Translations under genes and position numbers: made by a program
In this document: one piece after another, positions 3,801-36,373 of the stretch
Layout: each line of letters begins with the position of its first letter
Numbering within the stretch: position 1 is the stretch's first letter
Virus record (IMG/VR): IMGVR_UViG_3300045051_000154
Location: 1-46,171 of that record
Length of the DNA: 46,171 nt
Direction: 5' to 3' (one strand)
DNA from: a virus
Notes under the pieces: model-generated
Seen by the model: only the letters and a program-made list of their open reading frames with translations
Told to the model about the DNA's origin: nothing
The model's database searches: none

Positions 3801-3874
3801 AGGGATTTAGTTAAATGGTATAACAGGAGATTCCAAACCTTCTATTGTGGGTTCGATTCCTACAATCCCTGCCA
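3801..3874 (+). tRNA. tRNA-Trp (anticodon CCA)
   Basis: All four arms can be drawn. The acceptor AGGGATT (3801-3807) pairs fully with AATCCCT (3864-3870). The D-stem is GTTA/TAAC. The anticodon stem GGAGA/CCTTC has one G-U pair and one A-C mismatch at its inner end. The loop TTCCAAA has U33 and anticodon CCA. The T-stem GTGGG/CCTAC encloses TTCGATT. Discriminator G and an encoded CCA end follow. The length is 74 with CCA and the variable loop has 4 bases. CCA reads UGG, so this is not a UGA suppressor. The inner mismatch may be tolerated or reflect relaxed selection. Confidence 0.85.
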
Positions 3875-4597: not shown

Positions 4598-4820
4598 CGG
4601 CCTGTCCTAAGGGACTCGGGTAACATCCTTGTCCAGTGGGGTTGCAGGCCGACCAGTTTAGGGGAGTCCCGATATTCACGCCAAATGATTGGCAAGGAAC
4701 CGGGACTCCCCTCCCACAATAAGAAAAAGCGCTCTTGTGACAGGGGGGATCACACGAACGCTTCTTCAGCCGCTAACCCTATGCGGTGGGTCGCCGAACC
4801 CTAAAAAGACATTTTTTAGG
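4598..4820 (+). ncRNA. Highly structured non-coding segment downstream of the G+C-rich gene pair
   Basis: There is no convincing frame in about 300 bases (4591-4890). Successive inverted repeats are: CGGCCTG/CAGGCCG (4598-4604, 4645-4651); an 11-bp perfect stem GGGGAGTCCCG/CGGGACTCCCC (4661-4671, 4701-4711) with an inner hairpin GCCAA-ATGA-TTGGC; AAGCG/CGCTT enclosing TGTGA/TCACA (4727-4763); CCGC/GCGG (4770-4786); and CCTAAAAA/TTTTTAGG (4800-4820). No known RNA family was recognised. It may be a small RNA co-transcribed from the 4045 promoter, or a complex 3' end. Confidence 0.45.
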
Positions 4821-7664: not shown

Positions 7665-10600
7665 CTAGCGGAGAAGATTCTCTAGCATTCTTACTCTTTC
7701 AGCTTTTGCCTTCTTATCCGTCTTATATCTAGGATTTGGCTTTTGATTTTTGGACGGATCACCTTTTATTTCCTTTTGAGCATTCTCAGTATAATATTGC
7801 TCTAAAAGTGCCTTAATCTGGTCGTCAGTTGCACCACGCTTCTTCATGGTCTCAATGACTGTCTTTGACTCCTCTGGATTATCAGTCTTATCAAGGAGGT
7901 TATATACTGAACCCGGTTCAATCTCACTGGCTGCACCATAAGTGTTTACGGCAATACCAAGGCCGTCAGCTATCATGCTGAGTAACCATGGAGCTGAATT
8001 TGGGTCTTCACCGGCCTGCATCGCATTCTTGATAGGGAATGGAGTAATAGAACCGACTAAAACTTCGCCAACATTAGGTTTACCACCCCCGAACTTCTCA
8101 CCGCGTAACCAAAGGTCACGAGCGATTCCGAAGAGAGGAGATAGTTTATTTCCAGTGTAATTGACTAGAGTATCTTCGATTGTAGGAGCACCAAACTCAC
8201 CGCTATTTAGAGTTGAGACAAGTCCGGTAGTTGAGCTCTTTGTTCGACCAATGCCCCAGTTTCCTTCTGAATCAGGTGAAGGGACAACAGTTCTAGCGGC
8301 TAGGGTTAGGATTGAACCCATGCCGGCCGTAATATCAAATCTGGTATTTCCAATCTTAATCTTGCCAAAGTCAGCGCTTCTAGGGTCTAGGTCAACGGCA
8401 TCAGGATTGATGACGGCGACTGTGCCAAGGACTGCTCCAACTGAGCCGATAATCTTGAGAGTGTTCTTAGCGGCAATTTCTTTTGCTAAATCAAGCGCAC
8501 TATCTCGAGGCCCGCCCTTAATCATATTTTTGGCCATTGTGCCGGTATGACGAACATCTGTAAGTGTATCGATGTTGGCTTTAAGGTTTCTAGCTGAGAA
8601 GAAGACATTATTGAACCAGTCGGCAGCCATCTCAAATTTGCCAAGATCTCCTCGACCAGTGAGGGAGTTGGCCATTTTACCCATTTTCTTCATAGCTTCT
8701 TTAGTAACTTCTCCACCACCGTCAGCGAAGTTTCTCTCAGCTTGGTCTAGGAAGTTATCAAAGGCAGATATTCTTAACCTCTTCTGAAGACCAGTGAAGG
8801 CAGCTTCTGAAGCTTGGAAAGCTTTACCGGCAACACCCGGAAGTTTCTCTGGAAGAGATGAAGGGAATGCTTCTTCAACTACTTCAACAGCTAGACCGGC
8901 TTTCTTATATGTGCCGTCTAGGTATTTAGGACGAGAAACAATCCAAGCGTCAAGCTCGTCTAGTGGATTTAATCCGTTTTTCTTGAAGGTCATGAAAATG
9001 TCTTCCCATGACTTCTTGACCGCGCTTAACCATTCTTTAGGCTGAACAACGAGTGATTTTAGACCCGGACGGAAGATACCGGAATCGTCCAAAGAAGCGG
9101 TGAGAGATTTCATAACTCCACCAATTTCTTTAATAGATGTTAATGGATGTTTAACTTTATCCATCCAATCAGTATTCTTCAGAGTATCAACCATGTTCAT
9201 ATCAAGTTTTGGATCTTGAAGGAGTTTAACATAGTTGTTCATTTCAATCTGAGCTCGACCGTATGCAAGTCTTAGTTCTTCAGCCTCATCTGAGAAATCC
9301 TTAGCATCTAAGCCGTCAAGCTGAGTCAATTTCTCTTTAGCAACTCCAGATAGGTCAAGAACCCTCTTTGACTCCTCGTCAGTAAGAGGTAGGTCTTTGA
9401 GATATTTAGAAGTAGCTTTAGCTCTGGAATTAAGAACTCGTTTAAGAGCGGCAACCGGGTCAGTCGGGTCAATCTCGGCCATCATCCTAAGTTCCTGCGC
9501 GTGTCTTGATGTCTCAGAGGTTAGGCTTGAGGTAGCAAGCTTCATTGCTAGCTTGGCGTCTCCGGTCTCCTGAGCCTTCTGAGAAACTGCGGCCCATAGC
9601 GAAGCTCCCCTGATGTTATCAGGAATCATATTTGGATTATCAAGCATCATCATTAACTGGTCAGAACTGCTTGATTCAACAAGGTCAGCCGCCATTTTGG
9701 CCTGATCTTTAACATGAATAATATCGTAATCAGCAGTCTCACCAAGAGCCAATCCCATTTTCTTCTCAATATCTTTACCGAGCTTAGATAGGCCTTTTTC
9801 AGTTCCAGAAAGAACTTCGTCCACTGTATTGGTAATTCCGGCCTTAGGGATTTCAACACCGCTCTTCTTGACGGCTTCAGCCACCTGCTCAGGTAATTTG
9901 CCTTCGCCATACATCTCTCCGATAATACTCTTTAATAGAGGATTGCCGTCCAAAGCTGCGCTGATTGATTTACCGTCAACGCTCTTTGATACTCCGTCAA
10001 AGATAGCATCGACTGCGTTATCAAGGTTTTTACCCTTGAGGTCGTCCATAAGTTTAGGAGCGACATTTCCAACGACAAGACCGAGAGCAGCATTCTTCGC
10101 GTTAAACTTAACATTGCCATTCTCGTCAGTCTCAACACCACCGATTGCTCCAAAAGCGTTCATATTCTGGAACATCTTAGCAGCTTCTTTTTGAGTGCCA
10201 GTAGCTATCTTAGCTGGTTGACTCATTCTCCAAGCATCTAATTCTTCTAAGAAGGAAGTAACGCTACCGTCACCAATGTGGTATTCATCAGCAAATTGTT
10301 GAGCGAACTCATCGATAGCGCTCTTTGAACCGCTTCGGCCAAAGAAAGTCGGTTCAACATTCTCGTCCAGTTCACGCATTGTTTTTCTGATACGAGAGTC
10401 CTTCTTCATTAAGTCGTAGAATGGGGAATCCTTCCAAGCGTCTCTTGAGATGTTGGCTTGGTCTTTATTGAATTTCACCAATCCTTTGGCCGTGTCAGCT
10501 AGCTTCTTCATGAATTTACCGTGACCTTCAGGGTCAATGGCAGCCGATCTAGCCAAGGCGTCCTGATTAATTTCGTCTTCTAAGAAATATCTCAAATCAT

Positions 10601-12848
10601 CGACACTATTAATTTCACCTGCATTGAATCTCTCTTCAAGCATGTCGTTTATAAATCCTCTGATACCCTGAGCTTCTGATTTAGAGGCAACCCCGGCGAC
10701 CTCTTCAGCGCTAGGTTGAATAGCCTCAAGGTCAACATTCTTCATTCTGCCATCTTTAAGCGCAGTTTCATAAATATCCTGAACTTTAGAAGGACTTGCC
10801 TTATCTAATCCTTCAGTGCTAACACCGGCCTCTTGAAGCGCTTTGATTTGAGTGCTCTTTGATAGTTCGGCAGTTGCTCCGCCAGTCTCTTCAACAAACT
10901 GGTTAATATATTTAGCTCTGATTTCTTCAGTGGCGTTCTTGATAAACTTAGAACGAGCGCTTTTACCATTGATATTTAGAGCCTCTGAATTAATTGAGTT
11001 CAGCTCCTGAGCAGCTTCCTTATTCTTCCACATCCAAGCATCAAGCTCTGATTGCTTGGCTTTACTGCTACCAATTTCCTTAGCAAGTAAATCACGGTCT
11101 CCGCCGTTACCCATAGTGTTTCTAGCTGGAGTTCTAAGCTGATTTGAGTTAGCATTTTCTGGATTAAAAATATCTAGGCCGTTAACCGAGCCACCACGAG
11201 AGGCAATCTCTCTAGCCTGTTCAGGGGTTGCGACCCTAGTTCCGCCGGTAATGTCCTCAGCAATACTATCTCTAAACGCTTGAGTTGGTGCGGAAAGCAT
11301 TCTTGGTCCATTAGCTGTCTCAATAGCGGCTCTTGATCCCGGAGTAGGAGCTGGAAGGGTAAAGTCAACCAATCTCTTCTTGGCTTGACCGGCGATGTTT
11401 GTCATATCGTCAGCGCCTTGTCTTAGACCGGCTAGGCTATTATCCTGTTTGCTCATAACTGTTTCAAGTGCAGCATTAATCTCACCCTCGTTCATGCCAA
11501 GAGCACGAAGGGTTTTTTTCGCACCTTCAATTTGAGCGTCATTTGCGCCCAAGAATTGCATCATATTTAGATTTCTTTGAGTTTGATTCAATCTTGCAAG
11601 GTCAGTAACCGCTCCGGCTCCCTCGGCAATGATATTGTTACCCGAACGAGAAGCTTTCTCAAAGTTCTTCATTCCTCCTCGTAGGATACGAGAGGTATTT
11701 AGAATATCACCGGCAACTGGAAATGCTGAACCGTATATGATGTCATTCTTATAAGCCTCTCCTAGTGATTGACCCTCAGCTTCTTCACCACCGAATCCGA
11801 CTGTAGTTTCGGCCATGTTACCTAGAGAGTTTATAAATGCCCTAGTTCCGGTTGAAGCAAGTCCCTTGACGAGTGTTGGAGCTGATTCAAGATATTTACT
11901 ACCAGTGACGGCTTTAGAAGCTAAATCTGGAAGTTCAGTTGTTCCAAGTAGCTTAGCAATTGTTGCATATTTAAGGATGTTGCCACCGATTGTTCCGATA
12001 GTTCCACCAACTGCAGCCGGTCCTTGTCGAGAAGCAAGCTCATCTTGGAGAGACTTTACCTCTTTATCGTAGTCAGCAAGCGTCTTCCCGAGGTTCTTAT
12101 ACTCTCGAGATTGCTTATCTTTCATATTGGCTTTTAGCTCTTCACCCTGTTTCCATTGAGAGTAAAGTTTGGCTTCGGCTGCATTGTTGAACGACCCGTC
12201 TGGATTTGGTAGAACGGGAGCTTCCTTTGGCATTAAGGCAACAACCTTGGCTTGCTCCTCCTTAGACATGGCCTTGAACTTCTCGACATCTTTTTTATAA
12301 ACGCTTTCATATAACTGGTCAAAACGCTGAACCCGATTTTCTCCAGTCAACTCCTTCTGAGCAGTCTCAAATTTTTCATTACCGGCTTTTATTTCTTCAG
12401 TAAACTTATTGTTTGTTTTTCTAGCCTCATCAAGAGATTTTGCGTATTTGAAGAGACCCTCGGTATCACCGGGATGTTCTTTCATATATTGCTCAATCTT
12501 AGCTTGCTGATCTCTCATCTCTTCTGGAGATTTAACACCTGCACCGACCCAATTCTTGAACTTGTTACCCATATCTCGGAAAACATCCCAAGCATTAAGG
12601 ACGGTTGAGCCAAGGCCTGATTCGGTAGCTTGCCCCATATCAATCTGAGTTACATCGTCTAGGTTGCTTCTAAGTTTTACATATTCAGGTTTACGACCGG
12701 CCTCAGCGATATTGGTCATGCCTTGACCAGCATCGGTTAAAGGACCCATATCCGGTTCGGTTGGGTCTTTATATCCGCCTCCTGACTCTTGAATCTTCTT
12801 CTTATCTTCGTCAGTGAGGTCGCTGGTGAGCCAAGACACTAGGTTCAT
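7665..12848 (-). CDS. Very large internal virion/ejection protein candidate (1727 aa)
   Basis: The largest gene in the window, mostly helical and charged with little recognisable sequence. Three copies of ELDAW lie near residues 601, 871 and 1298 (SELDAWMWKN, EELDAWRMSQP, DELDAWIVSRP). Near residues 1460-1510, a hydrophobic stretch and DLDPRSADFGKIKIGNTRFD match a C-terminal region often seen in giant phage polyvalent or internal virion proteins. No protease, polymerase or transglycosylase motif was found by eye. Position at the end of the structural block with three co-oriented partners suggests a protein ejected with the DNA. GGAGATAAGAAT precedes the ATG. Confidence 0.6.
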   Translation of the reverse strand: MNLVSWLTSDLTDEDKKKIQESGGGYKDPTEPDMGPLTDAGQGMTNIAEAGRKPEYVKLRSNLDDVTQIDMGQATESGLGSTVLNAWDVFRDMGNKFKNWVGAGVKSPEEMRDQQAKIEQYMKEHPGDTEGLFKYAKSLDEARKTNNKFTEEIKAGNEKFETAQKELTGENRVQRFDQLYESVYKKDVEKFKAMSKEEQAKVVALMPKEAPVLPNPDGSFNNAAEAKLYSQWKQGEELKANMKDKQSREYKNLGKTLADYDKEVKSLQDELASRQGPAAVGGTIGTIGGNILKYATIAKLLGTTELPDLASKAVTGSKYLESAPTLVKGLASTGTRAFINSLGNMAETTVGFGGEEAEGQSLGEAYKNDIIYGSAFPVAGDILNTSRILRGGMKNFEKASRSGNNIIAEGAGAVTDLARLNQTQRNLNMMQFLGANDAQIEGAKKTLRALGMNEGEINAALETVMSKQDNSLAGLRQGADDMTNIAGQAKKRLVDFTLPAPTPGSRAAIETANGPRMLSAPTQAFRDSIAEDITGGTRVATPEQAREIASRGGSVNGLDIFNPENANSNQLRTPARNTMGNGGDRDLLAKEIGSSKAKQSELDAWMWKNKEAAQELNSINSEALNINGKSARSKFIKNATEEIRAKYINQFVEETGGATAELSKSTQIKALQEAGVSTEGLDKASPSKVQDIYETALKDGRMKNVDLEAIQPSAEEVAGVASKSEAQGIRGFINDMLEERFNAGEINSVDDLRYFLEDEINQDALARSAAIDPEGHGKFMKKLADTAKGLVKFNKDQANISRDAWKDSPFYDLMKKDSRIRKTMRELDENVEPTFFGRSGSKSAIDEFAQQFADEYHIGDGSVTSFLEELDAWRMSQPAKIATGTQKEAAKMFQNMNAFGAIGGVETDENGNVKFNAKNAALGLVVGNVAPKLMDDLKGKNLDNAVDAIFDGVSKSVDGKSISAALDGNPLLKSIIGEMYGEGKLPEQVAEAVKKSGVEIPKAGITNTVDEVLSGTEKGLSKLGKDIEKKMGLALGETADYDIIHVKDQAKMAADLVESSSSDQLMMMLDNPNMIPDNIRGASLWAAVSQKAQETGDAKLAMKLATSSLTSETSRHAQELRMMAEIDPTDPVAALKRVLNSRAKATSKYLKDLPLTDEESKRVLDLSGVAKEKLTQLDGLDAKDFSDEAEELRLAYGRAQIEMNNYVKLLQDPKLDMNMVDTLKNTDWMDKVKHPLTSIKEIGGVMKSLTASLDDSGIFRPGLKSLVVQPKEWLSAVKKSWEDIFMTFKKNGLNPLDELDAWIVSRPKYLDGTYKKAGLAVEVVEEAFPSSLPEKLPGVAGKAFQASEAAFTGLQKRLRISAFDNFLDQAERNFADGGGEVTKEAMKKMGKMANSLTGRGDLGKFEMAADWFNNVFFSARNLKANIDTLTDVRHTGTMAKNMIKGGPRDSALDLAKEIAAKNTLKIIGSVGAVLGTVAVINPDAVDLDPRSADFGKIKIGNTRFDITAGMGSILTLAARTVVPSPDSEGNWGIGRTKSSTTGLVSTLNSGEFGAPTIEDTLVNYTGNKLSPLFGIARDLWLRGEKFGGGKPNVGEVLVGSITPFPIKNAMQAGEDPNSAPWLLSMIADGLGIAVNTYGAASEIEPGSVYNLLDKTDNPEESKTVIETMKKRGATDDQIKALLEQYYTENAQKEIKGDPSKNQKPNPRYKTDKKAKAERVRMLENLLR

Positions 12849-14344: not shown

Positions 14345-15268
14345 CTAAGTCGTCCAATTAGATGATGCGTAATTCAAGAACTTATCCTTGAGTCCAGCAT
14401 TTTTAATACCTGATTGAGACCAAAGCGTAGCCCAATCGTTCTTCGCCATATCATTTCTATAGCTCTGAGCATATCCGGTGATAGAAGCTGAATTTCCAGC
14501 CTTATAACCTCTCCTCCAGTCTTCCTCAGTAGCATTCATATTCTGAGTAGCGCCAGCCGCTTTGTCTTCAACATCATTAATAGCGGCATTTCTCATCCCG
14601 CCACGAATACCATTCTCAGCAAAACTTCTCTGGGTTTCATCGAGAGTGTTCATTGTTGAGCTTGCTAGGTCTCTAGCTTGCCCGAGTTGGTCTCTAGCAT
14701 GAGCTGCAGCACTATAGTTAAAATCATTCTCATTCTGGAGATTAGCTGAGGTAACAAGCGCTTCAAGCCACTTTGTGCCGAATCTTGAGGTCATAGCAGG
14801 GTCGGCTAGCATCTCCTGAAGGATGTTTTCAGTAGAGTTAGGGTCAACAACACCGTCAGCAACTCTCTGAGCATAATAAGGGTCTAGCATTGGATTGTCT
14901 GCTAGACGAGTTAAAAATGAGTCCAAAATGGCTTTACCCTCTAAATCTGTAGGGTCAAGAAGATACTTCCAGTCATTTTGTATTTGACTGTAATCCCCAA
15001 TAACTTTATTATATTTGGCTTCTTCTTCTTTGGCAGCTATTTGTTCAGGAGTTAGAGGAGCAGGACCAGCAGCAGCGCCACCGCCACCACTAGAAGGAGC
15101 TTTGTATCCGGGAAGCGAAATAATAGTTCCAACTGGCATCCTCTTAGGATCACCCGCGAAACCACCAAGCTCGCCCCAACGACTGCCATTACCAAGGTAT
15201 TTTTGAGCAATCCCCCAAAGCGTATCTCCTGCCTGAACTTGTATTCTGCCATCTGGCAACTGAATCAT
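14345..15268 (-). CDS. LysM-domain virion protein
   Basis: A 307-residue protein. Residues about 9-53 are a LysM domain (QAGDTLWGIAQKYLGNGSRW ... IISLPGY), which binds peptidoglycan GlcNAc. A Gly/Ala/Pro linker (SSGGGGAAAGPAP) follows, then a long helical region without recognised motifs. It is the first gene after the promoter at 15307 and heads the ejection block, so it may anchor the channel to the wall during DNA entry; LysM in phages also occurs in baseplate proteins. AGGATTAAAGC before the ATG is a modest ribosome site. Confidence 0.7.
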   Translation of the reverse strand: MIQLPDGRIQVQAGDTLWGIAQKYLGNGSRWGELGGFAGDPKRMPVGTIISLPGYKAPSSGGGGAAAGPAPLTPEQIAAKEEEAKYNKVIGDYSQIQNDWKYLLDPTDLEGKAILDSFLTRLADNPMLDPYYAQRVADGVVDPNSTENILQEMLADPAMTSRFGTKWLEALVTSANLQNENDFNYSAAAHARDQLGQARDLASSTMNTLDETQRSFAENGIRGGMRNAAINDVEDKAAGATQNMNATEEDWRRGYKAGNSASITGYAQSYRNDMAKNDWATLWSQSGIKNAGLKDKFLNYASSNWTT

Positions 15269-15300
15269 GCTTTAATCCTGCTTCTGCCGAACCCGATTAT

Positions 15301-15320
15301 ATATATATTATAACATTTTT
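15301..15320 (-). promoter_or_regulatory. Extended -10 promoter for the ejection-protein block
   Basis: On the - strand: CAGTAAAAATGTTATAAT, TGTTATAAT at 15315-15307, then ATATATATA. It begins at the TAA stop of the gene at 15319. No -35 box. The short leader contains GGGTTCGGC (about 15286-15294), an element also present in the scaffold leader. Confidence 0.6.
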
Positions 15321-23760: not shown

Positions 23761-26071
23761 TTTCGTAATTATCTCCATACATTCGTATGGCCATTTCGCC
23801 GTCAACATAGACAATTGAGTAGGCTCCGCCAACAACTTGACCACCATGGAAGGCGTCTTGAACGCGGAGCACAATTGCGTCTTGTCTAACGATTGGAGTA
23901 TCTGAATCAACAACATGACCGGCGTCATCGACCGAGACGACCTGATTCAATATTGTAACTGCATTTTCTGAGGAAACATTATGTAATGAATTTGCCGGGA
24001 CAACCCCAATATTAAGCGCTATATCTGGATTTTCAGAGGTAAGAACATGAGTCGCGCCGTTGACTGTAACTTGGATTCCAGTTGATAGCTCTGGTGAAGC
24101 GGCTGAATGAGCGTGAACTCCGTCCTGAACAGACAAAACTCCAAGCGTAGTGATACCAAGTGATACATTCTCAGCCGTTTGAAGGTGATTTGAGTCATTT
24201 ACAACGAGAGATAGTTTAAGCGTTACCGAGATTTCTGCATTATCAGCAGTATGAGCACTAGCAGCGTCATGAACATTCAAGTTATTTCTAGCCGTTAAGG
24301 CGCTATTTTCAGCCGTATGTGGATGAGTTGCCGCCTGAACTGCCAAAAGCCTGTCAGAAGTAAGCTCTGGGCTCTCAGATGAGACAGAATGAGTGCTATC
24401 CTGAGCAACAACGGATAGTTTTGATGTAATTGACACATTTTCAGCAGAATGAGCGTGAATACCGTCTTGAACTACCAAAGGATTGAAGGTTGTGATTGCC
24501 AAAACTGCATTCTCGGCCGTGTGAGCGTGAGAGGCATCGGCAACTGTTAGCGGAGTGAATGTCGTGACCGCCAAGATAGGAGCTTCAGAGACATGTGCAT
24601 GAAGGCCGTCTTGAGCTACTAGAGCATAGCGGTTTGTATATGACAAAACCGGAGCTTCTGCTGTATGAGAGTGTAAAGCGTCCTGAGTAACTAATGTATA
24701 AAATATCTGGAATGACAAAGTTGGAGCTTCTGCCGAATGAGTATGTGAAGCATCTTGAACTGTTAAGGCCGTATCAACGGCTGCCTGATTATATGTAACA
24801 CTCGGTTGATCTGCAGTGTGGGCGTGGATTCCGTTTTGGGCCTCCAATGTATAGTAATTTGTGTATGAAAGAGTAGGGACACCTGCGGTATGCGCATGAG
24901 AGGCGTCCTGCACTGTCAAATTAGTATTTCCACCTGCTGCATCTGAATAATCAATATAGAGATAAGGTTTATTATTATCGGTTGTAGCATTTTCTGATGA
25001 ATAGAAGTAAGTAAATAGAGCAGCACTATCTTGTGTTGGGATGATACCATAGTCACAAAATCCACCCTTGTGAGTATCTACATGTGTCTTGACATTGATT
25101 GACCTTAAGCCATTTGTTCCTGCAACAAAACTACCAATTGCCGAACCACTTCCAGCAGAACCATAAACAGTTGCTGCATTTCCAGTTTCAGGGTCAACTT
25201 CACCTGCACCACTGATTGCCCAAAACTGATAACCAGTTTGTGAGTTGTAAGCAGTGATATTGAAGGTTGCAGAGTTGATTGTCTTACCTGCCAAACTTGA
25301 AAGGTCAAATCTAATGTAAGACCTATTGTATGCAGTCCAACTTGTGCCACAACCATCATTGAAAGAGTTGAAATATACACAAAGAACACCACTGTCTGTT
25401 CTTGTAAAACCAGTTGTTGTGTGACTGTTGATATAGGCATCAGATGATGCGATAGGGGATATAGTAGGGTCAAGAACTATCGGATATTTATAGGTATATA
25501 AATGCTGAACCTTGAGGCCCTTGCGGTCAGGTTTACTATAAACTGGTAAATGGCGGTAATCAGCAGAAAGCGCCCAAGGCTCTTTTTCTTTGCCCTTAGC
25601 TGATTTCTTGTATTTAACATATAGATATTCACCTGATTGACCAGTCCCGGTTAGTGGATTACTCCTGAAGATAAACTCTTCTTGAACCATATGTGGAGTA
25701 ATCGTATATTTAAGGTCCACTCCAGTAAAGAAATCTTCAAATATGATGGTCTGACCGTCAATGACCGGTTCTAAGTTTTGAGGAGCTTGAATTAACTCGT
25801 CATCAACATAAAGACCGAGAATATCATTAACATAATTCTTCCCGTCATATCTGAAGGTGATGCGATTCTTCTTAATCCTGACAGTAAAATCGTCAGAATC
25901 AGTAAAGATTTCATCACCATCTTTTTGTAGCTTAAACTCACTATTGTGCTTAATTTTGCCATTACTTTTATAGTAAATTGGCGCACCATAGATCTTGGCA
26001 TATTTGGAGCCATCAGGTCGCTGAAAATGCTCCTCATTTAATCTTTCTATAGGAAGTAGCTTATCAGCCAT
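23750..26071 (-). CDS. Histidine-rich tandem-repeat virion protein (773 aa)
   Basis: A 773-residue protein in three parts. Residues 1-200 are beta-rich with an alternating charged pattern. Residues about 205-375 contain SYIRFDLSSLAGKTINSATF, which matches DNRLRE-type beta domains of surface proteins. From about residue 384, at least 15 repeats of 22-27 residues follow the pattern L-x-VQDASHAHTAExPxL, degenerating towards the C-terminus, and end in a short cap. Such repeats form extended fibres in phage virions, and the paired His could bind metal along the shaft. It overlaps the PP-loop gene as TAATG. Confidence 0.7.
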   Translation of the reverse strand: MADKLLPIERLNEEHFQRPDGSKYAKIYGAPIYYKSNGKIKHNSEFKLQKDGDEIFTDSDDFTVRIKKNRITFRYDGKNYVNDILGLYVDDELIQAPQNLEPVIDGQTIIFEDFFTGVDLKYTITPHMVQEEFIFRSNPLTGTGQSGEYLYVKYKKSAKGKEKEPWALSADYRHLPVYSKPDRKGLKVQHLYTYKYPIVLDPTISPIASSDAYINSHTTTGFTRTDSGVLCVYFNSFNDGCGTSWTAYNRSYIRFDLSSLAGKTINSATFNITAYNSQTGYQFWAISGAGEVDPETGNAATVYGSAGSGSAIGSFVAGTNGLRSINVKTHVDTHKGGFCDYGIIPTQDSAALFTYFYSSENATTDNNKPYLYIDYSDAAGGNTNLTVQDASHAHTAGVPTLSYTNYYTLEAQNGIHAHTADQPSVTYNQAAVDTALTVQDASHTHSAEAPTLSFQIFYTLVTQDALHSHTAEAPVLSYTNRYALVAQDGLHAHVSEAPILAVTTFTPLTVADASHAHTAENAVLAITTFNPLVVQDGIHAHSAENVSITSKLSVVAQDSTHSVSSESPELTSDRLLAVQAATHPHTAENSALTARNNLNVHDAASAHTADNAEISVTLKLSLVVNDSNHLQTAENVSLGITTLGVLSVQDGVHAHSAASPELSTGIQVTVNGATHVLTSENPDIALNIGVVPANSLHNVSSENAVTILNQVVSVDDAGHVVDSDTPIVRQDAIVLRVQDAFHGGQVVGGAYSIVYVDGEMAIRMYGDNYEIMG
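23876..24922 (-). repeat. About 15 coding repeats, QDxxHxHTAE motif
   Basis: The unit is 22-27 codons. The best copies are N-terminal (VQDASHAHTA, AQNGIHAHTA, VQDASHTHSAE, TQDALHSHTAE, AQDGLHAHVSE, VADASHAHTAE, VQDGIHAHSAE). Later copies lose the second His (QDSTHSVSSE, NDSNHLQTAE, NSLHNVSSE). The His pair marks the conserved turn of each repeat. Confidence 0.8.
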
Positions 26072-26646
26072 TATACCCTCCCGGGGACTGACTTAACTAC
26101 CCAAGGAAATTCTTCCTCGGAGTAACCAGTAAAAGCAAGTGCCTCCTCTGTATTCATTGACCCGTATGGAGCAATATATTTTGGTCTCCAGCGAAGATTT
26201 AGGTTCGCATCGGCTGACTGATTGTATATATCATACATCTCAGGACTTCTTCGGCCGGCGAATCCGCCACAAACCTCATTAATCCCGAGAGTCTTTGCAT
26301 AAGAGACGGCCATTGACATTATAATCATCCCCATATTAGCTGGACCTGACCATAAAAATGGCAAAGTTGCAGTGTCTAAATCTTGAGCAACTGCATCGTC
26401 ATACATAATAAATGTGTTTTCGTCCTCATAGTGATTCGGCGTGTAGCCCCAATTGACTTCAATGACATGATGTCGTCCACCGCAGAACTCTTCTGCAGTC
26501 TTCTTGGCTGAGAGCATTGACTGCTCCCAACCAAGTGAATGACTGTTTATATAGACTGAATAGACTTCATAACCGTCTTCCATCAACTTGCGGCAAATCA
26601 TCGCAGAGTCGAGACCACCACTGTTTGCTACAAGTATCTTTTTCAT
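26071..26646 (-). CDS. QueC-like PP-loop ATPase, zinc motif missing
   Basis: A 191-residue enzyme of the N-type ATP pyrophosphatase (PP-loop) class: ANSGGLDSAM at residues 7-16 binds ATP. The central part (LPFLWSGPANMGMIIMSMAV, then SYAKTLGINEVCGGF) aligns by eye with the P-x-RN...A-x-x-A...G...GG region of QueC (7-cyano-7-deazaguanine synthase). It is shorter than QueC and lacks the C-terminal four-Cys zinc site. PP-loop enzymes adenylate a carbonyl or carboxyl group; the substrate here is unknown. It sits between a membrane protein gene and a fibre gene in the structural operon. No queD, queE, folE or transglycosylase gene is visible. Confidence 0.7.
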   Translation of the reverse strand: MKKILVANSGGLDSAMICRKLMEDGYEVYSVYINSHSLGWEQSMLSAKKTAEEFCGGRHHVIEVNWGYTPNHYEDENTFIMYDDAVAQDLDTATLPFLWSGPANMGMIIMSMAVSYAKTLGINEVCGGFAGRRSPEMYDIYNQSADANLNLRWRPKYIAPYGSMNTEEALAFTGYSEEEFPWVVKSVPGRV

Positions 26647-29504: not shown

Positions 29505-30407
29505 TTAAGAAGTAGTTCCGTCAGAACCGTATACACCATGCCAGTCAGAGAAACCGACAGAGAAACGACATCTGGCTTTGAATTTTCGAGAATCTGTGTC
29601 GAAACTGTTCTCTTCAGTGAATGAAGGTTTTTCTCTCCAGAAGAAGTTCAATTCATTCATAGTTGAGTCAATAAGGAACCAGAACTCTTTATTAGCGGCA
29701 GTAATCCAGTCGTAAACAACTAGGCTTAGAGCGCCTTTAACTGGGTTGATGTCGTTGTTAGCTGTGGCAGTTCTTTGAGTAGACTCAAGAAGGATACGAG
29801 CTTTAGCCTCATTATAAGGCGCAACAACAAGCTTATCAGGCTTAACCATGATCTTTTGACCTTGGTCATCAACTAGATCTCGCATAGCGAGGATACCGGC
29901 AAGAAGGTTAGCTTCAGTAAGTTTGCCAGTGCCTTTGTTTGACTGAGCTGTTCCACCATCCAAACGAGGATGATCTGTAGCACAAAGGGCTTTACCGTCA
30001 CCACCAGTTACAACAGTTGTGCCGAAAGCACCGTTTATAACCTTAGCAGCTTCTGTTTCAACAGTTCTGCGGACGGCTCGAGCTAGACCAGCAGCCTTTT
30101 TCTTCATGACATTATATTGGTCGTCATCCAACATTTCTTTGGTAACAGTGAAGCCACCTTTGAAAGTGTCATGTTTGTAGGTTACGCTGTAGCCCGGTAG
30201 AGCATCTTGATAATTTACTGGCTCAGCTTCACTAGCCTTATCAAGAAGTTTGAAACCAGTTACGCTGTAATCGGTTTCTTCTGATTGTTCTGAAGTTAGA
30301 ACATTGAAGATCTGTGAGAATTGTTCTGGCCACTCTTTGTAGACATCATCGTAAACTTTACGAAGGCCTTTGAATAAAAGTGGACCAAATTGATTTCGGT
30401 TCATCAT
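29505..30407 (-). CDS. Major capsid protein, Mu gpT-like (HK97 fold)
   Basis: A 300-residue protein matching the Mu gpT-type major head protein: KGLRKVYDDVYKEWPEQFSQ at the start (residues about 13-32), GYSVTYKHDTFKGGFTVTKE with MLDDDQY (E-loop to spine helix region), GGDGKALCATDHPRLDGG (the hallmark dGk-LF-x-x-H block), and LVVAPYNEAKARILLESTQR. It forms the icosahedral shell. There is no long N-terminal delta domain, consistent with the separate scaffold gene. GGAGGACTAGGAA precedes the start. Confidence 0.85.
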   Translation of the reverse strand: MMNRNQFGPLLFKGLRKVYDDVYKEWPEQFSQIFNVLTSEQSEETDYSVTGFKLLDKASEAEPVNYQDALPGYSVTYKHDTFKGGFTVTKEMLDDDQYNVMKKKAAGLARAVRRTVETEAAKVINGAFGTTVVTGGDGKALCATDHPRLDGGTAQSNKGTGKLTEANLLAGILAMRDLVDDQGQKIMVKPDKLVVAPYNEAKARILLESTQRTATANNDINPVKGALSLVVYDWITAANKEFWFLIDSTMNELNFFWREKPSFTEENSFDTDSRKFKARCRFSVGFSDWHGVYGSDGTTS

Positions 30408-30420
30408 TTCCTAGTCCTCC

Positions 30421-30810
30421 TTAGATGACTCTCTCGAAGAAAGTGAAAACACCTTCTGTGGCCGAGATGAATTTAATTAATGTTAACTGAGCTGTAGTAG
30501 CAGCGTGGGTGCTACCGTCAGCAGTTTGAGCACCAGTTGTTCCTTCAAGGTCCATGTGCTCACCTTCCATAGCAACTGTTAAATCAGAAGCTGGAAGGAT
30601 AACTTTTTGAAGGGGATCGATATTAACAAGAATCTTGTCGCCATCTTTACCGCCGTTAACTGCAGTGCCTAGAATTACTTCACCAGCAGCAGCAGGAGCA
30701 ACAACACCTTCAGCGATTGTTAGGACATCACCTTTAGTAATGTCTTCACCAGCTTCGTATTCTTGCAAAGCGCCTTCAAAGTTTCCACTTAGAGATCCAT
30801 AAGCTCTCAT
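30421..30810 (-). CDS. Capsid decoration-like protein (129 aa)
   Basis: A 129-residue beta-barrel-like protein (EAGEDITKGDVLTIAEG; GEVILGTAVNGGKDGDKI; LVNIDPLQKVIL) located between scaffold and capsid genes. The sequence pattern resembles small capsid cement proteins of the DUF2190 kind, which stabilise the shell at three-fold sites. No direct motif proves it; position supports it. Confidence 0.6.
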   Translation of the reverse strand: MRAYGSLSGNFEGALQEYEAGEDITKGDVLTIAEGVVAPAAAGEVILGTAVNGGKDGDKILVNIDPLQKVILPASDLTVAMEGEHMDLEGTTGAQTADGSTHAATTAQLTLIKFISATEGVFTFFERVI

Positions 30811-30838: not shown

Positions 30839-31873
30839 CTATTCAGCAACCGCATCCTCAGGACTTAGCCCAAAAGCTTTCGCCATCTTGAGCTGTTTCG
30901 CGGTCAATTGAGGAGCAGCCGGTTTTGAACCGGTTGAAATTGACGCACCGGTAGTTACAACTTTGGCATTTTCCTTCTTAGCAGCGCGGACACGAGCCTC
31001 TTCTTCAAGTTTTTTACGCTCTTCTTCAAGGGCTCTCTCTGGGAAAGTTGCCTTATACGAACGCTCCATGGCTTCCGCAAGTGGCAATTTCAGAGTTGCT
31101 TCTAAGATTGAAGTTTGAGTAGCGATTATCCCGCGCTCTTCTCTCGTTAAGCCGGGGTGCTTTGTCTCGAACTCGGTTATTGTGGCCATTCGTTCTCGTT
31201 CAGTTTTCTCCTTGGTGTCTTGGATCATTCTCAGACCGTCCTCACCAATCGTTTTCTTGACCGCTTCGTCTATGGTCTTTTGGTCGAGCTCAGGTTTCTT
31301 CGTAACAGGAGGAACATCCGCTCCTTCCACTGGCGTATAAACTTCGGACTGTGCCAAAAATGCTTTTAACAATTCTGGGTTAGACCTAAGAATGCCACGG
31401 ATTTCGTTTCGTTCCTTACCCCAATCTTCCTTTTCAGCAAGCAGGGCGTCACGCTCATTCTTCGCTGGAAGTAATACCTCGTTTACTTCACGGGTGGAAT
31501 CCGCATAATTCTTCTTATAAGGATTTGCATCTGATTCCCAATCAATTTGTGCAGGTTCTTTTTTCTCTTCTACCTTAGGTTCTTCTTCCTTGGTCTCCTT
31601 CTCCTCTGGAGTTTCAGTTTCCTTGGTTTCGGTCTCTTTGGTTTCCGAATCGGGTTGAACCTCTTCTTCCTTCTCTTCCTCGAGTTCGATTCCGAATGCC
31701 TCCGCAATCTTTTCAGCCTTCTCATCGTCTTCGATTGGCTCTCCGTTAAAGAGATCAATCTCGTCCTCAGTGTGGTTGACAGTTACCTCAGGCATTCCTC
31801 CGACTTCTGGGCCGTCCAAATTTACCTCGGTAACATTCTCTTGGATTTCCGGTTGGTTTGGTTTCATAGACAT
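30839..31873 (-). CDS. Scaffolding protein (344 aa)
   Basis: A 344-residue, very acidic protein with a Glu/Lys/Thr repeat tract (residues about 65-110, TETKETETPEEKETKEEE), a middle helical region and a Lys/Arg-rich C-terminal half ending LTAKQLKMAKAFGLSPEDAV. Charge asymmetry, helix content and location just before the capsid genes fit a scaffolding protein that guides procapsid assembly and exits before DNA packaging. ATG 31873 follows AAAGGGACAGTAAG. It is the first gene after the regulated leader. Confidence 0.75.
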   Translation of the reverse strand: MSMKPNQPEIQENVTEVNLDGPEVGGMPEVTVNHTEDEIDLFNGEPIEDDEKAEKIAEAFGIELEEEKEEEVQPDSETKETETKETETPEEKETKEEEPKVEEKKEPAQIDWESDANPYKKNYADSTREVNEVLLPAKNERDALLAEKEDWGKERNEIRGILRSNPELLKAFLAQSEVYTPVEGADVPPVTKKPELDQKTIDEAVKKTIGEDGLRMIQDTKEKTERERMATITEFETKHPGLTREERGIIATQTSILEATLKLPLAEAMERSYKATFPERALEEERKKLEEEARVRAAKKENAKVVTTGASISTGSKPAAPQLTAKQLKMAKAFGLSPEDAVAE

Positions 31874-31890
31874 CTTACTGTCCCTTTCTG

Positions 31891-31952
31891 CCTTCTCTTT
31901 CGAGCTTGGGCGATTTTTTACTATTTTATTTACCTTCCCTTTCGGGCTTGGG
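31891..31952 (-). promoter_or_regulatory. Tandem GAAA-loop hairpins in the scaffold leader
   Basis: Two 20-base direct repeats, 31952-31933 and 31910-31891 on the - strand, share CCCAAG...GAAA...AAGG. The only differences are in the arms: CCC-GAAA-GGG in the first and CTC-GAAA-GAG in the second, a compensatory C-G to T-A change. This supports selection on RNA pairing. They lie between the terminator and the scaffold ATG. Confidence 0.55.
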
Positions 31953-31962
31953 TTTATAAACT

Positions 31963-31987
31963 AAAAAAGACTTCCTATCTGGAAGTC
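31963..31987 (-). terminator. Intrinsic terminator/attenuator in the scaffold leader
   Basis: On the - strand GACTTCC (31987-31981), loop AGATA, GGAAGTC (31975-31969), then TTTTTT (31968-31963). An A-U and a G-U pair can extend the 7-bp stem. It lies about 90 bases before the scaffold ATG, so it can stop capsid-operon transcription early. Confidence 0.65.
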
Positions 31988-32062
31988 CTACTAACTTCTA
32001 AAGAGGGGTTCGGCGTCTCCTTAGAAGCTAATAACGCTTCCAGATAGTTTGCCGAACCCTCT
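31969..32062 (-). promoter_or_regulatory. Attenuator leader with competing antiterminator stem and pseudoknot-like pairing
   Basis: Order on the transcript: P1 AGAGGGTTCGGC (32062-32051), P2 CTATCTGGAAG (32047-32037), P3 AGCTTCTAA (32029-32021), P1' GCCGAACCCCTCT (32014-32002), P3' TTAGAAGTT (32001-31993), P2' CTTCCAGATAG (31985-31975). P2/P2' is an 11-bp perfect stem and P3/P3' is 9 bp with one G-U. P1/P1' is 12 bp with one bulge and reaches into the apical loop of P3. P2' includes one whole arm of the terminator hairpin apart from two bases, so P2 and the terminator exclude each other. No known riboswitch or ribosomal-protein leader was recognised. Confidence 0.65.
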
Positions 32063-32090
32063 GATTTCAAGCTACATATTATTTTGCTAT

Positions 32091-32110
32091 ATATATATTA
32101 TAGCATTTAT
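32091..32110 (-). promoter_or_regulatory. Extended -10 promoter for the scaffold/capsid operon
   Basis: On the - strand: CTAAATAAATGCTATAATATA, TGCTATAAT at 32105-32097, starting at the stop of the 86-residue protein gene. Start of transcription is expected near 32090, giving about 215 bases of leader to the scaffold ATG. Confidence 0.65.
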
Positions 32111-32367
32111 TTAGATACAATAGTATCTTTTTCCACTTTCAAAGCCTCTGCGAGGATTTTCTTGTGTTCTGCATATTGAGCTTTTTGCTCTTCTGTCAAT
32201 GGCTGATATGAAATCATTGGAATAAGTCCGTTGATTGTAACATCGATATAGGCGTCAATTCTGATACCGTTATCAAGACCCCACTCAACAAGTTCGTCCA
32301 CCTTAGCTTTGAACTTTAGACCCAACTCTGGGCTAACCGTTGTAGGTTGTGATGTTTTCTTTGACAT
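32107..32367 (-). CDS. Hypothetical protein (86 aa) downstream of portal
   Basis: An 86-residue protein with a helical start (LGLKFKAKVDELVEWGLDNG), a short beta unit (DAYIDVTINGLIPMI) and a charged C-terminal helix. No family recognised. ATG has AAGGAGAAGAAG directly upstream and starts within the previous gene (35-base overlap). Its stop codon TAA is embedded in the capsid-operon promoter. Confidence 0.5.
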   Translation of the reverse strand: MSKKTSQPTTVSPELGLKFKAKVDELVEWGLDNGIRIDAYIDVTINGLIPMISYQPLTEEQKAQYAEHKKILAEALKVEKDTIVSK

Positions 32368-32627: not shown

Positions 32628-34814
32628 TTATGCTATTGATTGATTAACTCCCATTTGCTGTTGGTCAAAACTCATGTCAGGTGATAGTGGGCTACCGCCT
32701 TGAGGTTGACCCGGGACTCCGGCTGCGGCCGGTAATGGTGCGCCACCTTCAGGACCGGTAGCTTGACCCGGCATTGGAGCTGCCCCTGCAGGTCCTCCGA
32801 TGCTCATTGGTGAGCCATTTCCGTTCACTGGAGCGGCTAATTGTCCAACGCCCTTAGGCATTGTTGGATTCAACTCTGCATTGATGTGATCTGTAAATAG
32901 TCTATCAATATTTGGAGTAATAGTCCATGCGTTTGCTTCAACGAAAGCCAAATGTTTCGCAGTATGCTCAGGAGTAGCTCCGATTGTGCCCGGTAATTGT
33001 GCTCCCTGCATCATTCTAGCGTTCTCTTCCTCAGCAAGTTCAGGACCAGCCGTATCAATATTGTCCATAAGCACTGCGTATGGGTCTTCATTGTGTTTAT
33101 CCATAAGCCATTTAGTAGCTTTTACTGGGTCAGTAGTAGGTAACTGGATTAATCGGTCAAAAAGCATCTCAGAACGCTGTTCTTCAAGGGCTTTTGATAG
33201 AGGAATTGAGCTCATAGACTGAGTTCTGAAGTGATATTCACCACGAATATCGTCTGGAGAGATAGTAATTGAGCTTAAAGCGCCAGTTTTAGGATCTTCA
33301 ACCTGAATTTGGCGGTAAATAGCGTTAGATTTAATCTCACCATCCTTACCAGTAACCTGATTTACCCTCACTGGGTCACGATACCAAGACAAAATATTGG
33401 CTAATCTTAGTCTTCCGAGACGATTTGTATATGTAATTCGGAAGATATTCATACCGGCACGGATTCTCTTGAGTGTAGACTCCTTCACAATAGCTGATTC
33501 TGTAGCTGTAGCACCGGTTGTAGATGCCATAGAAGGGTTTGAGATACCAGAACCGAGTCTGGAGTCTTCAAGAAGGGCCTCTTCTTCCTTATATGCGCTC
33601 ATTCCGGTGTCTGAGAAGTCCAAAGTCTTAACAGAATTGTTCGGATCTTGAACATTTATGCGCAATCCCGGCTTCACAAGCAATTCATCATCGTCAATAT
33701 CGGCTCTTTCAGAGATTAAGAAGACCTTAGCAATGTTTAATTTCGCTCTATCCATCCTTAATCGGCGAAGAGTATTAAGTTCTGACTGAGTTCCAGCGAT
33801 AATTTCTGGGATTGAAAGTCCCCAGAAGTGATTTAGACGCTTAATATAGCAACCCTCGGCAAAAGGTAGCATCTTATGTTCGTCTGGAAGGGCTGATTCA
33901 AACTCATTTAGAAGGACGCCATTGGCCACAATCCAATAAATATCCTGAGGTTTGTTGTAATAGTGAAGAACTTCGACCATTTCCTTGCCAGAAGCGCCTT
34001 CTGGACGAGGATTTGCCTCTTTTTGTTCGGTTTCACCACCGGCTGTAACATCTGCAGCCTTCTTATATCTCTTATAAATATCCTTAAAGACATGAAGCTC
34101 AAAGGTTTCACGGCGAATACAGTCAATCATGTTGCCTGCAGTGGTAGCAGCTTCATGTGGATAGAAGTCCCAAGGTGAAATTACCTTGCGATAAGGGTCA
34201 TTAAACTCTGTTGTTTCATAAATATCCCAAGTCTTAACGCCATCTTCGGCCACTGACTTGAGTTCTTTTAGGATTACTGGATCTTCACGGTAGTATTCCC
34301 ATGCAATCGCAGTTCCATAAATACCCATCGAACGATAAGCGATGTTGTCTTCAAGGTCAGCATCACCTTTCATCAAGGTATATTTCTCAATATCTTTAAT
34401 TATCTTAGCGCCTTCATCGTAAGCTTCCTGACCAGCGTCAATGAATGATTTAGGCTGGGAATCAGCATATTCAGCCACGGCAGTTTCAACCATGCCATGA
34501 GTAAGAGGAACGCTCATTGTAGAACGCCATTCTTCGCCAACTATAGTAGCGCCTTGTTTTACGAGATAAGCATCTTCATTTTTGCGCCAGATTTCTTCAT
34601 AAGCCTGACGCGCAGCCGCCATTGATTTTCTTCGTTCATCAACCCAATTGGCTGCCTTAGTTTCATCATCACCGTCAGCTTCTTTATCAAGGAAGGACGG
34701 ATACCATGAGTCAACTAATGTCTTTTCAACAACTTCATTATCGGGCGTAACCCCTTCAGGTTTTACTTCTTCGGCTACTTCTTCAGCCGGCCCCACTGTT
34801 TTTGGTGTCGCCAT
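32628..34814 (-). CDS. Portal protein, P22-like (728 aa)
   Basis: A 728-residue portal candidate, longer than the ~400-550 of siphophages and like P22-type portals. Visible: helical N-terminal region (ARQAYEEIWRKNEDAYLVKQ), wing segments (VISPWDFYPHEAAT; MVEVLHYYNKPQDIYWIV), the crown/stem part (LNHFWGLSIPEIIAGTQSEL, then NTLRRLRMD) and the TATESAIVKESTLKRIRAGM helix. The last 80 residues are a disordered Gly/Pro/Ala/Gln tail. A ring of 12 forms the DNA channel. It lies directly after the large terminase gene. Confidence 0.85.
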   Translation of the reverse strand: MATPKTVGPAEEVAEEVKPEGVTPDNEVVEKTLVDSWYPSFLDKEADGDDETKAANWVDERRKSMAAARQAYEEIWRKNEDAYLVKQGATIVGEEWRSTMSVPLTHGMVETAVAEYADSQPKSFIDAGQEAYDEGAKIIKDIEKYTLMKGDADLEDNIAYRSMGIYGTAIAWEYYREDPVILKELKSVAEDGVKTWDIYETTEFNDPYRKVISPWDFYPHEAATTAGNMIDCIRRETFELHVFKDIYKRYKKAADVTAGGETEQKEANPRPEGASGKEMVEVLHYYNKPQDIYWIVANGVLLNEFESALPDEHKMLPFAEGCYIKRLNHFWGLSIPEIIAGTQSELNTLRRLRMDRAKLNIAKVFLISERADIDDDELLVKPGLRINVQDPNNSVKTLDFSDTGMSAYKEEEALLEDSRLGSGISNPSMASTTGATATESAIVKESTLKRIRAGMNIFRITYTNRLGRLRLANILSWYRDPVRVNQVTGKDGEIKSNAIYRQIQVEDPKTGALSSITISPDDIRGEYHFRTQSMSSIPLSKALEEQRSEMLFDRLIQLPTTDPVKATKWLMDKHNEDPYAVLMDNIDTAGPELAEEENARMMQGAQLPGTIGATPEHTAKHLAFVEANAWTITPNIDRLFTDHINAELNPTMPKGVGQLAAPVNGNGSPMSIGGPAGAAPMPGQATGPEGGAPLPAAAGVPGQPQGGSPLSPDMSFDQQQMGVNQSIA

Positions 34815-34825
34815 TTTTTCTCCCT

Positions 34826-36373
34826 CTAGTAATTCGTTATACTATCCATTGGCCTACGCTTAGCTTTACGCTCACGATCCTTCCTACGAGGTGGATACGC
34901 GATGTCTAGCATATATGCAAGCGCATCGATCATGTCGTCATGCTTACCGGTTGGGAACCTCAAAAGCTGGTCGACAAATTTATCGGTGTTCTTATCATTA
35001 CGCCTTATATATATTATACCATTTTCAAATCTAGGTTGTAATCCCCTTATGCGATTTACCTTGCTTCTAGCGTTTGGCTTCAGCTCGGTAATAGGTATAT
35101 AGTTATTGTCCTCTCGAGACTTGGCCTGAACCATATATTGTAGAACCTTCTGGAAGGCAACTCCTTCAATCCCTGTGGTCTTTGGCTGGATCTCTTCATC
35201 ATGTTCAAAAATCTTATCCACAATCTTGCCCGGGGTGAGTTTACCAACGGTCGGGAATCTGACAAACCAGTTGTTATCTTCATCAACTGCAACATGACAA
35301 AAGACGGAATCATCGTTCCGGTCGTCCTGACCAATGGCCGGGTCAAGCGTCACGAAGTGATTTAACCGGAGACTCTTGAGGTCATCGTCATCATAATATT
35401 GAATTTGCTCCTTGCGGAACATTGCGTCTTCGTCTGAGATCGGGTCGTTATAATACTGACAAGAAAAAGTATATGCGCTTTGATTGGCGCGGATGTCGGC
35501 GATGTGATCATCGTTGAACTTATAGGGCCAGAGGGGTTTCCCGTCCTCTATAACCTGACGGATATAGATGTAATAAGGCTTCGGCGAAGAATCGTTTTTC
35601 TCGATGATTTCTCCGTATAGGTCATTGTCATGGTAACGAGTTCCTACGATACGCCAATCCGTATTCTCGCCGTCACCAAGTGACTGTGATAAGCCCCACC
35701 ACTCCTTAACTTTGTCTATCTGTTCTTTCGTGGTCACATTCGTTTCGTTGACCACATCGTCCGGGATAATCAAATCATAGTGCTGTGATACCAGAGACGC
35801 CCCCACGCCCGCGCACTTGATTGTATTTTCCTTGAGTGCGAGGTTGGTGCGTTTAGACACTACTATCTCACCCTCATTCCACTTCTTCCCAACGAAGTCT
35901 CCATAATACATTCTGAGTTTCTGGTTTCCCTCAAAATGCCCCTTAATCGCTGTAAGGAAGGCTTCGGCATTGTCCCCCTTGGCGTTAGCAATTAATATTC
36001 TAATGTTGGGATCTCTAATTATTCTCCACACTGAGTAACCGATTGTCAAGATTTGGGATTTCAAATGACCACGAGGAATCAAGTCCATTTGGCGGTGAGG
36101 GCCATACTGAGCCAGCTCACACATCTCGTGGTGAACATCTGCTAAATTACCGCAACCTAAAATGAACTCATTAAAAAAATCAAAGTTCAGGAGTCCCAGT
36201 TTCGCTTCCGTCTCGGAGAACAATTTCATCAAGGAGGCTACTCTCTCGGGATTCTTCCCCTCCTTCAATGACATTTCCCTCTCCAACGAGGATAGCAAAC
36301 TGTTTCTCAAGCTCTTCAGTCGATTGACCTCCGATAACTCCGACTCCGATATTAAGTTGAGTCTTGTTCCCAT
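34826..36373 (-). CDS. terL: Terminase large subunit
   Basis: A 515-residue packaging motor. ATPase part: IPRGHLKSQILT (variant Walker A, residues about 98-109), then ILIANAKGDNAEAFLTAI, with DLIIPDDVVN as Walker B (about 205-214). Nuclease part: TLDPAIGQDDRND (first Asp cluster, about 345) and KHDDMIDALAYMLD (last Asp cluster, about 490). It translocates and cuts DNA. ATG 36373 has AGGGGAG 9 bases upstream but overlaps terS by 194 bases; ATG 36274 with GGAGAGGG is an alternative. The 3' part holds a promoter (35013). Confidence 0.9.
   Translation of the reverse strand: MGTRLNLISESELSEVNRLKSLRNSLLSSLEREMSLKEGKNPERVASLMKLFSETEAKLGLLNFDFFNEFILGCGNLADVHHEMCELAQYGPHRQMDLIPRGHLKSQILTIGYSVWRIIRDPNIRILIANAKGDNAEAFLTAIKGHFEGNQKLRMYYGDFVGKKWNEGEIVVSKRTNLALKENTIKCAGVGASLVSQHYDLIIPDDVVNETNVTTKEQIDKVKEWWGLSQSLGDGENTDWRIVGTRYHDNDLYGEIIEKNDSSPKPYYIYIRQVIEDGKPLWPYKFNDDHIADIRANQSAYTFSCQYYNDPISDEDAMFRKEQIQYYDDDDLKSLRLNHFVTLDPAIGQDDRNDDSVFCHVAVDEDNNWFVRFPTVGKLTPGKIVDKIFEHDEEIQPKTTGIEGVAFQKVLQYMVQAKSREDNNYIPITELKPNARSKVNRIRGLQPRFENGIIYIRRNDKNTDKFVDQLLRFPTGKHDDMIDALAYMLDIAYPPRRKDRERKAKRRPMDSITNY
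35009..35027 (-). promoter_or_regulatory. Extended -10 promoter inside terL
   Basis: On the - strand: GAAAATGGTATAATATATAT, TGGTATAAT at 35021-35013, coding for ENGIIYIR within the nuclease domain. The match to the intergenic copies is complete over the core. It would start transcription about 200 bases before the portal ATG, providing portal without new terminase. Confidence 0.55.

Follow-up and report, generated by a model that had tools for sequence, protein, structure and literature searches.

The minus strand of this phage carries a leader at about 32062-31963, after the portal module and before the first of the head-assembly genes. It is probably a phage-encoded attenuator of transcription that controls whether RNA polymerase reads on into those genes, likely scaffold and capsid. 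Two competing structures are predicted for it, and since two related viruses keep both folds, a real gene switch is probable. The original prediction had read the layout as that of a transcriptional switch, and comparison of the sequences supports it: the pairings are kept in two independent relatives, and a repeated phage promoter lies upstream at 32105-32097. Phages need hundreds of capsid and scaffold copies per portal, and the usual explanations for this dosing are promoter strength, translation and processive antitermination. If our reading is true, an intrinsic RNA attenuator in this position would add a compact means of adjusting the dose of the head genes or their timing.

Genes around the Leader

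The window, by which we mean the whole stretch of DNA analysed (46,171 nt), is a 46-kb virus record. Read along its minus strand, terminase (34826-36373) and portal (32628-34814) are followed by two small genes and then the leader, behind which come a 344-aa gene, a 129-aa gene and the major capsid gene. The leader occupies a gap of 233 nt, with a small gene at 32107-32367 before it and the 344-aa gene behind it. The genes behind it were the following:

30839-31873, minus strand: first gene behind the candidate switch, 344 aa, acidic, 62% identical in both relatives
30421-30810, minus strand: 129-aa gene with a weak head-scaffold match (phrog_673, E = 2e-4)
29505-30407, minus strand: major capsid protein (phrog_371, E = 2e-33)

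The 344-aa gene has no PHROGs or Pfam match and is likely the scaffold, judged by position and acidic composition only. The scaffold label first given to the leader agrees with these two properties, but the weak scaffold match belongs to the next gene. Elsewhere in the window, a gene within the structural module (26071-26646, minus strand) has a weak QueC-like (queuosine biosynthesis) match, and a 1727-aa late protein (7665-12848, minus strand) has no PHROGs or Pfam match. The sole tRNA is a tRNA-Trp at 3801-3874 (plus strand); seven tRNA matches were found in the related record G001 and none in the incomplete record G002 or in G003.

A Repeated Late Promoter Upstream of the Leader

The promoter sites relevant to the leader were as follows:

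32097-32105, minus strand: promoter core TGCTATAAT (extended -10), with the fuller repeat A(A)AAATGNTATAATATATATA
35021, 32105, 20292, 15315 and 7655 on the minus strand and 4045 on the plus strand: AAAAATGNTATAATATATATA promoter sites before late genes in the window
15286-15315, minus strand: another late leader, in which this promoter precedes GGGUUCGGCA, before the LysM-domain gene at 14345-15268

The window contains seven copies of the motif TGNTATAAT, where 2.2 would be expected, and five minus-strand copies and one plus-strand copy lie in the longer repeat AAAAATGNTATAATATATATA. Across three phages (window, G001 and G002), this longer repeat was found at 15 sites at late-gene starts; in G001 and G002 it stands at matching places, the terminase end and before the LysM-domain gene. 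At the capsid leader it is present in the window and G002; in the relative L003 an inserted ORF lies directly upstream of the leader and a plain TATAAT is left. This ORF (L003 3860-4267, 135 aa) looks HNH endonuclease-like by eye and has no Pfam match. Of the 15 promoter sites, 14 have a T at a distance of 20 nt on the upstream side of the TG; no clear -35 box was found among them. With the repeated promoter at 32105-32097, a start of the leader RNA is predicted near 32090, and the sequence gives good evidence for it.

Two Predicted Folds of the Leader

Every pairing listed in the original prediction was found in place on the minus strand. The parts of the leader were the following:

32062-32051, minus strand: 5' strand of P1 (P1a), AGAGGGTTCGGC = AGAGGGUUCGGC, core GGGUUCGGC at 32059-32051
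32014-32002, minus strand: 3' strand of P1 (P1b), GCCGAACCCCTCT = GCCGAACCCCUCU, core within the apical loop of the ON hairpin
32047-32037, minus strand: 5' strand of P2 (P2a, antiterminator), CTATCTGGAAG = CUAUCUGGAAG, complement of 31985-31975
31985-31975, minus strand: 3' strand of P2 (P2b), CTTCCAGATAG = CUUCCAGAUAG, also the source of the terminator loop and of most of its 5' arm
32034-32017, minus strand: 5' strand of P3, 18 bp with 32005-31988
32005-31988, minus strand: 3' strand of P3, partner of 32034-32017
32023-32041, minus strand: P4, inner hairpin GGAAGC/GCUUCU, inside P1 in the OFF state and present in minimum-energy prefix folds of all three phages
31989-31963, minus strand: intrinsic terminator AGGACTTCC-AGATA-GGAAGTCTT (RNA AGGACUUCC-AGAUA-GGAAGUCUU), stem 31989-31967 and U6 31968-31963
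31932-31953, minus strand: downstream leader hairpin 1 with a GAAA tetraloop, with counterparts in L003, L005 and the switch-less L387
31890-31911, minus strand: downstream leader hairpin 2 with a GAAA tetraloop, directly 5' of the ribosome site AAGGGACAG

P1 consists of 9-12 bp, that is, 12 bp with one bulged C, of which an uninterrupted 9 bp join 32059-32051 with 32014-32006. As had been proposed, it links the 5' flank to the apical loop of the long hairpin, where the P1b core sits. An intrinsic terminator, stem and U6, lies inside the 233-nt gap before the 344-aa gene, and the reported overlap of P2 with one terminator arm was confirmed: in three phages the P2 3' strand holds CUUCC of the terminator 5' arm together with the loop. 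P2 and the terminator are mutually exclusive because CUUCC is common to both. P4 likewise shares strands with P2/P3. The idea of directly competing folds therefore holds for P2 and the terminator, which share a strand, but not for P1 and P2, since the core helices of P1 and P2/P3 have zero nucleotides in common. P1 excludes P3 for another reason, the zero-length linker between P1b and P3b, which adjoin without a spacer just as originally described. A pseudoknot of P1 and P2 without P3 is sterically possible. The three mutually exclusive folds suggested at first reduce to two main states: OFF, made of P1, P4 and the terminator, and ON, made of P2/P3. The ON state is a long hairpin of 11 bp, a 2x2 internal loop, 18 bp and an 11-nt apical loop displaying GCCGAACCC.

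The folding energy of the 121-nt element was -45.6 kcal/mol, compared with a shuffle mean of -27.8 (z -5.3). When each state was enforced, the OFF/ON energies were -45.4/-44.1 kcal/mol in the window (minimum of 2000 shuffles -43.8), -44.9/-46.5 in L005 (-41.3) and -38.1/-44.2 in L003 (-37.2). In all three phages, none of the 2000 dinucleotide shuffles reached an energy as low as that of either fold, the poorer one included, so the two folds are not due to chance. In L003 the ON fold is better by 6 kcal/mol, and bistability may therefore be weak there.

In growing transcripts, P1 was predicted to form once its 3' strand exists and to keep a probability near 1.0 until P2b is nearly complete. This stable prefix fold of P1 and P4 leaves the terminator free. 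After P2b synthesis, the equilibrium fold in prefix folding of the three phages was P2/P3; once the terminator 3' arm was complete, the window returned to OFF (92%), and L005 and L003 remained ON at equilibrium. Before completion of the terminator arm, direct-path barriers for leaving the P1 state were about 24-28 kcal/mol, values that are upper bounds because pseudoknotted strand exchange was disallowed.

From these predictions the following mechanism can be proposed. The leader transcript would begin near 32090, from the repeated promoter at 32105-32097, and during transcription P1 with P4 (the anti-antiterminator) would be the most stable fold until P2b is made. If P1/P4 persisted, the terminator hairpin could form before the U6, and this OFF state would end transcription near 31963. 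If P1 were absent or opened, P3 and P2 (the antiterminator) would zip up and consume the terminator 5' arm, leaving no terminator, and the ON state would admit RNA polymerase to the head genes. We infer that a factor (a phage or host protein, a small molecule or a trans RNA) acting on the strongly conserved P1 sequence GUUCGGCA chooses the state. Termination would be the likely default, since P1 has a head start and, once formed, is a deep kinetic trap. The proposed gain is that head genes could be dosed or timed apart from late genes that have the same promoter without an attenuator. The two hairpins at 31890-31953 (minus strand) have asymmetric internal loops and places kept in L003, L005 and L387, and they are possible translational operators.

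Conservation and Distribution of the Element

A capsid-protein scan recovered three close relatives, L003, L004 and L005, whose capsid proteins are 82-85% identical. They have the same gene order with the element in the same gap. The leaders of L004 and L005 are identical in sequence, leaving the window, L003 and L005 as the distinct leaders that carry the element. Homologous leaders were the test named for the original prediction, and at the same genomic position in L003 and in L005 (identical to L004) the P1, P2 and terminator pairings were all kept. The 9 bp of P1 persist in L005 and in L003 (with G-C changed to U-A), P2 is conserved in L005 and, with one mismatch, in L003, and P3 shows compensatory changes across the three phages. 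The terminator arms (GGACUUCC/GGAAGUCU, CGGCUUC/GGAGCCG and AGGCUUCC/GGAGGCCU) differ in the three phages, and all pair. Conservation of the P1 core and of AUCUG/UUAGCUUCU was seen across these three closely related phages only.

In P2/P3, four pairs were changed on both sides, a count matched by 24 of 500 shuffles. For the OFF pairs (P1/P4/terminator) on MAFFT columns, two-sided changes were in no excess over shuffles (91 of 500), partly because one loop base missing in L005 shifts the register. As only three distinct sequences carry the element, the covariation is thin and is suggestive, not conclusive.

Two covariance models of the leader, R1 and R2, were built and scanned on 448 kb of related loci (45 loci). 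The three known leaders scored at E of about 1e-20 or better, and no other locus in the 448 kb fell below E 3, so that this check returned the expected members and no new ones. The opposite strands of the leaders match R1/R2 weakly because the element is palindromic. R2 had no match in 842 kb of other phage DNA, and the models had no member in three terminase-relative loci, L387 among them. Strict DNA patterns for P1 plus P2 and for the P2 arms, searched in 2.9 million viral contigs, gave only the same three phages among the matches listed; the other matches that were inspected are unrelated sequence. Scans of the viral collection with capsid, portal, terminase and scaffold proteins and with two DNA patterns likewise gave no further carrier among the matches listed, and BLAST of the element against plasmids and phages gave nothing beyond a chance match of 29 bases to Vibrio phages.

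The phage of L387 (record G003) has the same gene order, and its terminase and capsid are 56% and 52% identical to those of the window phage. It has a TATAAT where the upstream gene ends, a pair of small hairpins and an AAAGGACAG ribosome site; its gap is well under 100 nt compared with 233, and no P1, P2/P3 or terminator was found in it. The candidate switch is therefore not general to the capsid operon, since L387 has the same gene order and is switchless. The absence in L387 makes the candidate switch a lineage-specific module. On sequence comparison, either one lineage acquired this module or the others lost it, and it sits between a promoter and a 5' UTR that are both older. Close relatives with and without the switch make the question directly testable.

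A Word Shared with the LysM-Gene Leader

The P1 sequence GUUCGGCA recurs in the LysM-gene leader of all three switch phages and not in that of the switch-less one; GUUCGGCAG of this leader is kept in G001 and G002 and absent from G003. The word GGTTCGGC occurs seven times in the window, with 0.7-1.3 expected. On the sense strands of the window and G002, the ten-mer G[GT]GTTCGGCA is confined to the capsid and LysM leaders, in both cases right behind the promoter; G001 has it in both leaders and in other copies. One phage factor, or the terminated attenuator RNA, may act through this one word in two late leaders behind the same promoter, which would couple head assembly to the expression of a cell-wall-binding late gene. 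We consider such coupling speculative and rather unlikely. The link between the two leaders was drawn post hoc from the sequences of four genomes.

The LysM-gene 5' UTR itself is conserved, as AAUCG[GU]GUUCGGCAGAA[AG]CAGGAUUAA, at 15269-15300 (minus strand) in the window, in L434 (G001:11662-11695) and in L435 (G002:25778-25818). It is a small hairpin, with the likely ribosome site inside, that has GUUCGGCA in common with P1. Another conserved non-coding stretch, at about 4700-4800 (minus strand) in the window and L438 1617-1700 (G001), carries GGTTCGGC/GTGTTCGGCA and then ACCCACCGCATAGGGT[TC]AGCGGCT.

Alternative Explanations

The arrangement could also be a plain intergenic terminator next to a long RNase III-type hairpin, so that transcripts would be processed and partly terminated after the portal and before the head genes, and no switching would occur. 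Interrupted hairpins of near 30 bp, like the one at this locus, are classic processing substrates, and distant relatives such as L006, L267 and L254 have portal/scaffold terminators. We regard this explanation as unlikely, since it accounts neither for a conserved P1 in the flank and apical loop nor for a hairpin that consumes the terminator arm in all three phages. A pseudoknot riboswitch, in which P1 and P2 form together, P3 stays open and a ligand-binding H-type-like pseudoknot blocks the terminator as in the fluoride riboswitch, is quite unlikely. P1 and P2 have no common bases, the linkers are long enough (20 nt from P1b to P2b and 22 nt from P2a to P1b), the energies of P1 (-17.1) and P2 (-15.7) can be set against those of P1, P4 and the terminator (-17.1, -7.7 and -11.4), and P1 is nearly invariant, as expected of an aptamer. 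However, such a fold has no need of P3, whose pairing compensatory changes preserve in all three phages, and apart from P1 the linker bases show no aptamer-like conservation.

The terminated leader might instead be a trans-acting small RNA that pairs through its loop GCCGAAC, for example with the LysM-gene leader and its P1a word GUUCGGCA. G[GU]GUUCGGCA follows right after the same promoter in the LysM leader of all three switch phages, GUUCGGC is missing from that of the switch-less G003, and the duplexes reach -19.7, -21.5 and -12.8 kcal/mol. A phage precedent exists in IsrK of Gifsy-1, a short terminated leader acting in trans (PMC4825925). Yet among gene leaders the LysM leader was only 4th of 70, 2nd of 65 and outside the top six of 35 in duplex energy, the match in G002 is only 7 bp, and the common word could equally be a protein site. 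Since the LysM leader does not stand out by duplex energy, recognition by a common binding factor is no less likely than RNA-RNA pairing. Pairing in trans with this leader was rejected as the sole explanation, the energy ranking not being decisive, and we consider a trans-acting role highly unlikely. The attenuator thus remains our preferred reading.

Comparison with Known Systems

The leader matches no Rfam family; the best scores were chance matches to microRNA models and Phe_leader with 20.2 bits against 55. A leader-peptide attenuator was rejected, as the AUG of the window is directly followed by UAG and is absent from L005, and inspection of the three leaders gave frames and spacers across P1-P2 that differ by one base, and no conserved peptide. 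A T-box riboswitch was rejected likewise, with no RF00230 match in the window or relatives, and the T-box idea for the L006/L267 leader (CACGGGUGGUUCCGC) was not supported. In L006 4430-4640 (also L250) and L267 3380-3640, the last from a Prevotella metagenome assembly, a strong terminator stands no more than about 30 nt behind TGNTATAAT; a conserved CACGGGUGGUUCCGCAAAAGACCG lies after the terminator and before the scaffold gene in L006, L250 and L267.

The int-alpA RNA (RF02996) was found in the distant relative L245 at 2135-2198 (44.1 bits, gathering 35.8) and not in the window. It is likewise located behind the same kind of promoter right after the portal gene, but its structure and sequence are unlike those of our leader; there it lies behind an extended -10, outside its usual naming context. 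Considering this RNA and the promoter-terminators of L006/L250 and L267, the portal-scaffold gap holds differing terminators or RNAs in several relatives with this type of capsid.

In the P4/P1 satellite and prophage immunity leaders (CI RNA and c4 RNA), repeated complementary words set premature termination, and these RNAs act in lysogeny and replication control. The capsid leader differs in preceding head genes, in its cis pairing and in its intrinsic terminator.

The original prediction knew of no such leader in a phage capsid operon, and we found no description of a capsid-operon attenuator of this kind in the open-access papers searched, most subscription journals being outside the search. 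The logic of anti-antiterminator, antiterminator and terminator is proven for the Bacillus subtilis rplJL leader in autogenous attenuation by L10(L12)4 (PMC4538822). There too, three overlapping leader structures play the same roles, and the first one formed decides the outcome (PMC4538822). In contrast, P1 of the phage leader excludes the antiterminator by topology and P4, not by strand sharing, and it stands in a phage head operon; the two leaders have no known sequence relation. IsrK of Gifsy-1 is likewise a phage leader with its own promoter, a partly read-through terminator and two near-equal folds, at -85.7 and -84.2 kcal/mol (PMC4825925). It switches translation of a read-through mRNA, whereas the folds of our leader would compete with the terminator, and there is no known sequence relation here either. 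In fluoride and other pseudoknotted transcriptional riboswitches, an upstream pairing that is kept or lost also decides the fate of a downstream terminator (PMC11077080), but the phage leader has no Rfam match or recognised aptamer. Compared with these systems, the leader is a new lineage-specific RNA that would follow a known principle in an unusual place.
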